From NCBI RefSeq assembly GCF_003206065.1, contig NZ_PZJQ01000002.1, positions 513,392 to 577,391 on the forward strand: DNA of 64,000 bases. Reading direction: 5' to 3'. Both the position numbers and the translations under genes were made by a program. This stretch comes from Salinicola halimionae. Lineage in GTDB: Bacteria; Pseudomonadota; Gammaproteobacteria; Pseudomonadales; Halomonadaceae. Position 1 is the first letter of the stretch. The number at the start of each line of letters is the position of its first letter. The notes under the pieces are model-generated. The model made no database searches. It saw only the letters and a program-made list of their open reading frames with translations, and was not told where the DNA came from. Positions 15,680 to 17,756 of the stretch are shown here, in pieces.

Positions 15680-16606
15680 GTCAGCCACACGCTGGACCTG
15701 GAGCTCCTGCGCACGTTTCAGGTCGTGGCGCAGACGGGGTCGCTGGCGGCGACGGCAGAGGTTCGACACCGCACGCTGAGCGCGATCAGCATGCAGATGA
15801 AGCGGCTGGAAACGGAGTTGGACGTGCGCCTGCTCGACCGGGGGCCTCGCGGGGTGTCGTTGACGTCGAGCGGAGACGTGCTGCTACGCGAAGCGCGGGA
15901 ACTGTTGCGGGTTCACGACACCCTGGTCAGTCGTTTCAGCGGCGAACGGTTGAGCGGGCGCGTACGCCTGGGGATTCCCGAAGACTATGCCCGCGAGCTG
16001 CTCGATGACACGCTGCCGCAGTTCATGGCGCGCTATCCGGGCATTCTGCTGGATGTCACCACCGATACCAGCGGCCGTCTCGCCAGGGCGCTGCGCAAGC
16101 GTCAGTTGGACCTGGCGATCGTGCTCGATCATGCAACGGGGCTCGAGGGCGGGGAAACGCTGTGGCATCCCATGCCGGTATGGGCGGGGCCGGTTCAGGG
16201 TGCCATCCATCGGGAGGCGATCGTGCCGCTGGCGGTACATCCCGAGGAGTGCCCCTATCGGCAGCTGGCGACCGATGCCCTCGATCTGGCGCAACGTCCG
16301 TGGCGGGCGATTTTTACCAGCACCAGCATTCATGCCGTGGAGAAGGCGATCGAAACCGGCATGGCGATCGGCGTGCTCGACCGCGAACGAGTGACCACGG
16401 CGATGCGCTCGCTCGATGAAAGCGACGGCATGCCACTGATACGCCGCTGCATCGCCAGATTGCACTTCGCGCAGACGATCGATACCGCCTCGCAGCCGGC
16501 AGTCGAAGCATTGGCACAACTGCTGCGCGAGCGATTGCAGGGTCGCGGGCCCTGGCAGCGTGACGCGCTGAGCGGGCGCGATCCCGGACAGAAAACGCGG
16601 GCCTGA
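15671..16606 (+). CDS. LysR family transcriptional regulator
   Basis: 311 residues. The N-terminal winged helix-turn-helix (about 8-67) includes LRTFQVVAQTGSLAATAEV and RRTLSAISMQMKRLE-type recognition helix (here HRTLSAISMQMKRLE), then DVRLLDRGPRGVSLTSSGD. The remainder is the periplasmic-binding-like effector domain with GRVRLGIPEDYARELL. The start at 15671 places the HTH at the usual distance. It diverges from the EamA transporter; LysR regulators commonly autorepress and activate the divergent gene. Confidence 0.9.
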   Translation: MIEVSHTLDLELLRTFQVVAQTGSLAATAEVRHRTLSAISMQMKRLETELDVRLLDRGPRGVSLTSSGDVLLREARELLRVHDTLVSRFSGERLSGRVRLGIPEDYARELLDDTLPQFMARYPGILLDVTTDTSGRLARALRKRQLDLAIVLDHATGLEGGETLWHPMPVWAGPVQGAIHREAIVPLAVHPEECPYRQLATDALDLAQRPWRAIFTSTSIHAVEKAIETGMAIGVLDRERVTTAMRSLDESDGMPLIRRCIARLHFAQTIDTASQPAVEALAQLLRERLQGRGPWQRDALSGRDPGQKTRA

Positions 16607-16630
16607 AACACGAGCCTGAAATACGAACAT

Positions 16631-16656
16631 AAAAAAGCCGCCCTGGGCAGGGCGGC
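16631..16656 (-). terminator. Intrinsic terminator of the small RNA candidate
   Basis: The 8-bp stem 16637-16644 / 16649-16656 with a 4-base loop is followed on the minus strand by six T (16631-16636). There is no T tract in the plus direction, so it does not serve the LysR gene that ends at 16606. Confidence 0.85.
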
Positions 16657-16750
16657 ACTAAGGACCGTGACTAGCTTGATGAGGAGATAACCATGGCAGG
16701 AACCTGACATTCGCTGCTGTGGTCGGTGGCGTTTGGCGACGCCACGAGGT
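16631..16750 (-). ncRNA. Candidate Fur-regulated small RNA (PrrF-like)
   Basis: Read on the minus strand, a transcript of roughly 120 nt would begin just past a Fur-type box, form a 5' hairpin (GTGGCGT/ACGCCAC, 16726-16745), then an unpaired core (16665-16692, containing TCTCCTCATCA and GTCACGG), and end in GCCGCCCT-GCCC-AGGGCGGC plus six T. This is the layout of PrrF/ArrF/RyhB-type iron-sparing RNAs. The core resembles, from memory, the conserved PrrF core of Pseudomonas. The transcription start is estimated, not seen. A 34-codon ORF overlaps but would begin inside the Fur box. Confidence 0.65.
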
Positions 16751-16753
16751 AAA

Positions 16754-16792
16754 GGTAATCATTCTCATTTGTGATTGCAAGCGTAACGAGAA
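16754..16792 (-). promoter_or_regulatory. Fur-type box and promoter of the small RNA candidate
   Basis: GGTAATCATTCTCATTTGT (16754-16772) matches 12 of 19 positions of the classical Fur consensus. ATTCTCATT (16761-16769) recurs inverted as AACGAGAAT (16784-16792), suggesting two operator halves. On the minus strand TTGCAA (16775-16780) could serve as -35. The box covers where -10 should be, the usual arrangement for iron-dependent repression. Confidence 0.6.
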
Positions 16793-16835
16793 TCTTTTTT
16801 ATTTGGGCTGGATGCCATGCCGAAATCGCCATTTA

Positions 16836-17756
16836 TCAACTCACCCCGAAGCCGTGTAACAGTAGCGGTAGCGTCGCCATCGCCAGCAGCGTCTGCCCGG
16901 TAATCACGGCGGCCATCAGTTCCGCGTCGCCGCCCAGCTGGCGGGCCAGGATATACGCCGACGTGGCGGTAGGCAGCGCCGCGAACAGCAGGGCGATATC
17001 TCGATCGACACCGTGAAGGCCAACGATCCAGGCCAACGCCACTACGATCAATGGTGTGACGATCAACTTGAGTGCACTCGATAGCCAGAACGCCTTGCCG
17101 CTATGCCATAGCGCCTGGGGCCGCAACGCTACGCCCACGGCAACCAGCCCCAACGGTAGCGCCGCATTGCCAAGCAGCCCGACGGCTTCGAAGCTCCAGC
17201 CGGGTAGCCCGATGCCGCCCAAATTCAAGGCGATGCCCAGCAGGCAGGCGAGAATCAGCGGGTTTCTCAGTAGCGCCGTGGCACTCTGACGCAGACTGGC
17301 GCTACCCAGCGTGCCGGAGGCGATGAAGGCCAGCACGCAGAGAATGTTGGCGGTAGGCACCATCAGTGCGACGGCGACGGCAGCCACCGTGGTACCGTCA
17401 GCGCCGTGCAGAGCGGTGGCGCCGGCGACGCCGACATAGGTGTTGAAGCGCACCACGCCCTGAAAGGCGGAGGTGAAGACGGGAGGCGACAATCGTAGCC
17501 GATCCCTTGCCAGCCAGAGCCCCAGGCCCAGCAGCGTCATCGTGCCGAGTAGCGTCACCCCGAGGCGAACGACCGGCACCTGGCTGACGTCTGCGGTGGC
17601 GAGCGTGGCCACCAGCATCGCCGGGAATAGCAGGTAATAGATGAAACGCTCGAGTCGCGGCCAGAAATCCCCACCGGGAAAACGCGCCCAACCCAGCGCC
17701 GCGCCGAGTAGAATCAATAGAAATAGCGGGCCCAGGGCGTTCGCGATGTCGCTCAT
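16836..17756 (-). CDS. AEC family transporter
   Basis: 306 residues, about ten transmembrane helices in the auxin-efflux-carrier fold. Visible: FIYYLLFPAMLVATLA in the first half, the N-terminal-half helix VVRFNTYVGVAGA, and ALPTATSAYILARQLGGD near the C-terminus, a characteristic AEC pattern. Bacterial relatives move malonate, malate or other carboxylates; the substrate here is unknown. It ends 84 bases short of the small RNA promoter region, with no terminator of its own before it. Confidence 0.87.
   Translation of the reverse strand: MSDIANALGPLFLLILLGAALGWARFPGGDFWPRLERFIYYLLFPAMLVATLATADVSQVPVVRLGVTLLGTMTLLGLGLWLARDRLRLSPPVFTSAFQGVVRFNTYVGVAGATALHGADGTTVAAVAVALMVPTANILCVLAFIASGTLGSASLRQSATALLRNPLILACLLGIALNLGGIGLPGWSFEAVGLLGNAALPLGLVAVGVALRPQALWHSGKAFWLSSALKLIVTPLIVVALAWIVGLHGVDRDIALLFAALPTATSAYILARQLGGDAELMAAVITGQTLLAMATLPLLLHGFGVS

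Follow-up and report, generated by a model that had tools for sequence, protein, structure and literature searches.

The locus described here is, judged by its sequence and predicted structure, a genuine homologue of the Pseudomonas small RNA PrrF that lies beyond the formal limits of the Rfam family RF00444, and the interpretation offered by the original prediction is supported. It was found in a 64,000-nucleotide stretch of the Salinicola halimionae genome (hereafter the window), where a compact small RNA (sRNA) unit on the minus strand fills the gap between genes for a LysR-type regulator and an AEC-type transporter (Table 1). We propose that the product is very probably a Fur-repressed, Hfq-dependent, trans-acting iron-sparing RNA of the PrrF type, with a predicted length of about 116 nt. 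This RNA probably switches off iron-containing proteins under iron scarcity.

Table 1. Features of the sRNA unit and its flanking genes (window coordinates)
Feature	Position	Strand	Basis or remark
LysR-type regulator gene	ends 16606	plus	borders the sRNA unit
AEC-type transporter gene	16836-17756	minus	same strand as the sRNA, about 90 bp upstream of it
PrrF-type sRNA, predicted, about 116 nt	16631..16746	minus	RF00444 match 16629-16779 and R1 match 16629-16753
Inverted upstream Fur-type half element GATTCTCGTT	16785..16794	minus	sequence; same form upstream in 66/108 unique copies
Predicted -35, TTGCAA (TTGAC in many relatives)	16775..16780	minus	promoters of relatives; inferred
Putative Fur box, between -35 and -10, overlapping -10	16748..16772	minus	consensus match and relatives
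Predicted -10, TACCTT (relatives often TATCTT), 17 nt from -35	16752..16757	minus	sequence comparison; inferred
Hairpin H1, GUGGCGU/ACGCCAC	16726..16745	minus	fold and covariation
Hairpin H2, conserved loop UGUCAGG at 16709-16703	16696..16717	minus	covariation and single-copy folds
Unpaired seed/core UUAUCUCCUCAUCAAGCUAGUCACGG, anti-Shine-Dalgarno type	16665..16690	minus	conservation and fold
Intrinsic terminator, 8-bp stem, loop 4, U6	16631..16656	minus	terminator prediction and covariation

The elements named in the original prediction all lie on the minus strand, at or near the places assigned to them. These include the 5' hairpin (H1), the unpaired core containing TCTCCTCATCA and GTCACGG, and the intrinsic terminator. 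Hairpin H2 with its UGUCAGG loop and the -35/-10 pair flanking the Fur box had not been described there. The predicted start of the RNA (near 16746) was set by analogy with PrrF1. The sRNA has a fold z-score of -3.3, with 1 of 200 shuffled sequences folding equally well, and the last 22 nt of the core are 77% unpaired in the minimum-energy fold and unpaired in the centroid. Protein coding at the locus was considered and rejected, in agreement with the earlier claim that no convincing protein is present: a possible ATG occurs at 16710, but the 52 copies sharing it do not agree on the reading frame relative to the core (38 vs 14).

A search with the PrrF covariance model, which had been suggested as a check, gave a significant full-length match on the minus strand (47.6 bits, E 3e-7, model positions 1-150 of 150, in a 301-base scan), although this score lies below the 90-bit gathering cut-off of RF00444. 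The next-best Rfam match in that scan had an E-value of 0.27, and neither a RyhB nor an NrrF model was among the six Rfam matches obtained at E up to 10 for 16550-16850. The window locus is also the sole RF00444 match in the whole genome (E 9.6e-7). Since the score falls under the cut-off, a scan of the window at the gathering threshold returns no match, automatic annotation would miss the sRNA, and we class it as a PrrF homologue outside the formal boundaries of the family. RF00444 includes the Fur box, on which the match could lean; we therefore built a covariance model of the transcript part alone (R1) from 36 Halomonadaceae copies, starting near the transcript start and excluding the box. 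R1 matched the window copy with 114.8 bits, this copy being itself among the 36 sequences of the model. Moreover, R1 recovered all 26 PrrF-like loci from other families (L147-L172; best hit per locus E 5e-12 to 7e-7); these loci were taken from searches of the order and class with RF00444, so that the result is a test of the transcript part and not of the search. Only two positions separate the 22-nt core from the most frequent Pseudomonas-type core, and scores in other families of the order are intermediate. Together with the covarying hairpins and the retained core described below, the RF00444 match bears out the PrrF-like reading.

The core CUCCUCAUCAAGCUAGUCACGG barely changes among copies. 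With A or G allowed at two positions, its 22 nt are exact in 108 of 119 unique copies, which derive from 146 loci, 35 of them retrieved through the exact core itself; of the RF00444 hits in the Halomonadaceae, a part was retrieved. In thirteen of the 146 loci the pattern did not find the core, which proved to be shortened or changed there. In two copies (L086 and L107) the core has one or two extra CAT units (CTCATCATCAAGC, CTCATCATCATCAAGC), resembling a lengthening of the seed by slippage. Of the 119 copies, 116 were folded and 55 were left at 90% identity, and 32 of these were picked by hand for alignment A1, with the most divergent copies omitted; alignment A2, from which R1 was built, comprises 28 of the 32 A1 rows (without L031, L036, L047 and L083) and 8 of 14 divergent rows. 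The omission of divergent rows favours the pair counts in both alignments. Thirteen of 17 pairs in A1 (plain MAFFT) change on both sides, and 90.9% of cells are paired, compared with 82.1% in shuffles and 38-51% when the partners are slid. In A2, 16 of 20 pairs change on both sides (88.5%), with 73 cells against 23.9 in shuffles and at most 28 after sliding. The shuffles ignore relatedness, so more weight attaches to the slid controls and to how many pair types occur.

Both hairpins contribute to this signal. Changes on both sides occur in 5 of 7 pairs of H1 and 6 of 7 pairs of H2, with 99.6% and 79.4% of cells paired, respectively; the poorer pairing of H2 is partly due to a one-base bulge misplaced by MAFFT. 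When the 116 copies were folded singly, the TCAGG motif, present in 103 of them, was placed in a hairpin loop in 82. A longer H2 in which the UCAGG loop is replaced was seen at L031, L036, L047 and in the first copies at L002 and L003, the second tandem copies of the latter two retaining UCAGG. The features expected of a PrrF-type transcript, namely a retained unpaired seed core, conserved hairpins and an intrinsic terminator, are thus present at the window locus. The original prediction had named lack of conservation of core and hairpins in relatives as evidence against it; instead, the core is kept in the copies counted above and the transcript-only model finds the RNA almost throughout the family.

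The promoter region is consistent with Fur control. The best match to a 19-bp Fur consensus in either strand of the window is 15/19 at 16748-16766; read on the minus strand, the consensus matches 14/19 at 16748-16766 and 13/19 at 16754-16772. The previously claimed box is thus present and is the best of the window, but the 12/19 match on which the claim was based is unremarkable by itself, as 59 19-mers of the window score at least 12. Similarly, the inverted second half exists as GATTCTCGTT, but its best 19-mer (16782-16800) reaches only 12/19 and would not stand out alone. The corresponding upstream block, ATTNKCRTT, is the form shared by the relatives' half elements listed in Table 1. A combined promoter and Fur pattern occurs in 80 of 107 unique upstream regions of relatives compared with 44 of 20000 control 100-mers; this pattern was defined after viewing the sequences, and an earlier version with other gaps matched 10 of 144. 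Most of the 27 copies without the pattern have other Fur-like palindromes by eye. A promoter scan of 16000-17400 found no sigma-70-like promoter, and the predicted -10 of the sRNA is weak. A predicted Fur site within the promoter, a further feature expected of the group, is present with 15 of 19 consensus positions and is kept in relatives.

PrrF-type RNAs appear to be nearly universal in the Halomonadaceae. RF00444 matched 117 of 151 genomes of the family at E <=0.001 and none of the 151 above the 90-bit cut-off; 16 of the 20 misses listed fall in the genus groups g10 and g20. R1 matched 149 of 151 genomes (all except G018 and G094), about 30 of the 149 having supplied sequences to the model. 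Outside the family, RF00444 matched 47 of 293 genomes in a sample of the order, 3 of 369 in a sample of the class and none of 14 control genomes. Twelve of the 293 exceeded the cut-off, all from family f3, which by its scores and tandem copies we infer to be the Pseudomonadaceae. The exact 26-mer core was present in 35 stretches from Salinicola, Chromohalobacter, Modicisalibacter, Kushneria, Phytohalomonas, Halomonas, one Halomonadaceae bacterium and one gammaproteobacterium. All 18 Salinicola genomes have a single R1 match each. At least two R1 matches were found in 45 of the 151 family genomes, a number of them in tandem, with three in G022 (L107) and four in G139, for example; a tandem array of five is present beyond the family in G763 (L167). 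Read-through RNAs resembling PrrH are conceivable from such tandem copies. No title or abstract among the matches listed by our searches, mostly of open-access literature, describes a native PrrF in Halomonadaceae, and as far as the searches show, the near-universality of the RNA in this family and its invisibility at the Rfam cut-off are new.

The gene order around the sRNA is typically thiG-trmB-(EamA-LysR)-sRNA-AEC. At least one neighbour homologue (thiG, trmB, EamA, LysR, AEC, a hypothetical gene, FKBP or ABCF) was found at 116 of 145 loci, a set that includes some genomes twice and in which some of the 29 loci without a neighbour are those where the script did not locate the core. The EamA-LysR pair is missing from many loci, and in six g6 loci (L083, L123, L126, L127, L128 and L131) the sRNA is inverted with respect to trmB and AEC. 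No homologues of thiG, trmB or AEC were found within about 1.5 kb of the loci L147-L172.

We propose that at sufficient iron, Fe-Fur would occupy the box between -35 and -10 and block transcription. Under iron scarcity, Fur would be released and transcription could proceed to the intrinsic terminator, giving an RNA of about 116 nt. Hfq might then present the unpaired core (UCUCCUCAUCA...GUCACGG) to mRNAs encoding dispensable iron proteins, where pairing at the ribosome-binding site could lower the translation or stability of the targets and thereby spare iron. The core complements GAUGAGGAG-type ribosome-binding sites, and the S. halimionae genome contains one Hfq gene and two FUR-family genes. 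Homology, conserved structure and core, promoter, gene place and the hfq and fur genes are direct observations of this analysis; expression of the sRNA, its iron control, its Hfq dependence and its targets are proposed. The Pseudomonas PrrF RNAs are described as Fur-repressed and as repressing the mRNAs of non-essential iron proteins (PMC13104616).

Candidate targets were sought with the pattern GATGAGGAG-N2-12-ATG in four genomes, which gave 36 matches (8 in the own genome, 12 in G027, 8 in G001 and 8 in G005); four of the 36 were the sRNA gene itself, and the same pattern read backwards gave 8. Only the sRNA gene and one other site in the own genome contain near-full complements of the core (16-mer, <=2 mismatches). 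The screen picked up a paoA-like [2Fe-2S] subunit in both Salinicola genomes. This protein has Fer2 and Fer2_2 domains, and its nearest NCBIfam model is PaoA (200.7 bits; cut-off 322). At the ribosome-binding site of its leader, 16 of 18 Salinicola genomes have a perfect core complement of 9-10 nt and the other 2 have one of 8 nt. Outside Salinicola, a complement was found at L310 (9 nt), L318 (10 nt) and L316 (8 nt) and was absent from the start regions of L314, L315 and L317, with L319 and L320 lying outside the count. Among controls, a complement of at least 8 nt at -35..+3 occurred in 0 of 105 Salinicola leaders, and one of 9 nt was found once among the 133 candidate starts in the window; the paoA-like complement is, however, partly the Shine-Dalgarno sequence itself, and the candidate was chosen after the fact. 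The duplex energy of the leader (-26.8) was beaten by 2 of 49 control leaders. The paoA-like subunit is thus the best candidate target, for which complement length, but not duplex energy, is suggestive. A second paoA-like paralogue has a complement of at most 7 nt in the 11 of 11 Salinicola leaders read, three paralogues of the own genome lying outside this count. Further upstream than the ribosome-binding site, the paoA-like leaders L295-L301 and L304-L309 share a second conserved block whose sequence is CGCAGTGACGCGC or nearly so.

Two further candidates were rejected in Salinicola. Against the sdhC duplex (-24.4 kcal/mol), 4 of 49 control leaders did equally well or better. The Fe-type superoxide dismutase gene sodB is the classical PrrF target. 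Sorted by motifs that we take to distinguish the Mn-type from the Fe-type enzyme, the main superoxide dismutase (SOD) of all 18 Salinicola genomes (L180-L197) has the Mn-type motif, while the further SOD matches fetched from the genus (L201-L204) have neither; no Fe-type SOD was seen among these 18 main SODs and four further matches. Chromohalobacter (L200, G001) also has an Fe-type SOD gene, with the leader GUGAGGAGA before the ATG providing a seed-complementary ribosome-binding site.

The seed itself differs in a Halomonas-type group of copies. Those read from g10 and g20 end, with few exceptions, in CUCAUUGCUAGUCACGG, the g10 copies mostly having CUCCCUCUCAUUGC. A changed core ending in CUCAUUGC was seen at L115, L125, L139, L141, L142, L145 and L348-L367, and these copies mostly have the H1 loop UUGAUGAG or UUAAUGAG, which by eye could pair with the changed core; counting such loop-core complementarity is unreliable, since AATGAG also occurs in the Fur box. 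Homologues of paoA near the sRNA in 5 of 20 g10 stretches have a 9-nt complement to the variant core, at three different places; three of the five have one site in common and are closely related. As a control, the variant core was complementary in 1 of 252 leaders, and the canonical core, which is not theirs, in 3 of 252. We regard this putative pairing between variant seed and paoA as a lead rather than a result. An unlikely extension would be that the iron-sparing RNA PrrF is ancient in the order rather than a Pseudomonas speciality, with seed and targets co-evolving clade by clade. In clades without a remaining Fe-SOD (Salinicola, judging by the SODs seen), the seed might be held by iron-sulfur mRNAs of other kinds, the paoA-like one among them. 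In the Halomonas-type clade, the seed itself might have changed (to CUCCCUCUCAUUGC); the paoA leader would have gained sites complementary to it, and the loop of the 5' hairpin (UUGAUGAG/UUAAUGAG) could pair with the seed and so gate it.

Three other explanations of the locus were weighed. An RNA of the PrrF lineage could have kept its Fur box while its main job moved from iron to another field such as oxidative stress or central metabolism. The lack of any Fe-type SOD among those seen and the scarcity of long complements elsewhere would fit such a shift, as would the peroxide induction of Pseudomonas PrrF itself that is described in PMC13104616. We nevertheless consider it quite improbable, given that the promoter and Fur pattern is retained in 80 of 107 copies and that the best candidate target is an iron-sulfur subunit. 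It is also conceivable that no separate gene exists and that the sequence belongs to the AEC transporter gene as its 3' untranslated region and terminator, next to a Fur box arising by chance. The shared strand and the distance of about 90 bp from that gene are what this explanation would predict; against it, the -35, Fur box and -10 are conserved, and the RNA is retained where neighbours differ or are inverted and in tandem copies, leaving it a probability close to negligible.

Convergence on a RyhB- or NrrF-like role, with Fur control and iron sparing but no common descent with PrrF, was already disfavoured and seems highly improbable. Fur-controlled RNAs of unrelated sequence do exist, PrrF having no sequence homology to E. 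coli RyhB according to PMC4211561, and many of the single elements at the locus are short. Independent origin is nevertheless difficult to reconcile with a full-length RF00444 match at E 3e-7, with a transcript-only model that finds the loci of other families again, with a core two positions away from its commonest Pseudomonas-type counterpart, and with the intermediate scores of other families in the order. Descent from a common PrrF ancestor, with an iron-sparing role, remains our preferred reading.

With a model of the R1 type, an iron regulator would be annotated in almost all Halomonadaceae genomes (149/151), and probably also in relatives of industrial Halomonas, whereas the current Rfam threshold passes only the f3 genomes (12/293) of the order sample and 0/151 Halomonadaceae. 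H. bluephagenesis has been engineered with a P. aeruginosa PrrF1 scaffold as a tool; a native PrrF homologue, if present there, could compete or interfere with this scaffold. In addition, the tandem arrays and seed variants make the evolution of an sRNA seed against its targets testable.

NrrF of Neisseria and RyhB of enterobacteria are likewise iron-repressed RNAs that act on iron-protein mRNAs, and the model of neither was among the matches of the window locus at E up to 10. PrrH arises by read-through of tandem prrF1-prrF2; a number of Halomonadaceae have PrrF-like copies in tandem, and the window has one copy, so that no PrrH-like product is expected there. ArrF of Azotobacter vinelandii is described as an iron-repressed PrrF homologue in PMC2851614, which cites a reference whose title has ArrF regulating sodB and FeSII; we liken it to the window sRNA by description only, as a PrrF homologue. 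The closest comparison is with PrrF1 and PrrF2 of Pseudomonas. The window sRNA differs from these in its hairpin sequences and H2 loop, in its RF00444 score of 47.6 bits against a cut-off of 90, in the lack of an Fe-type SOD among those seen, and in copy number, with one copy here and two in nearly all Pseudomonas as stated in PMC4211561; thiG, trmB and AEC were not found near the loci of other families. The predicted length of about 116 nt compares with 116 nt for PrrF1 and 114 nt for PrrF2 as given in PMC2851614. Shared with both are the Fur box between -35 and -10, the 5' hairpin, the middle hairpin, the terminator with its U run, and the core UUAUCUCCUCAUCA(A/G)GCUA(A/G)UCACGG.
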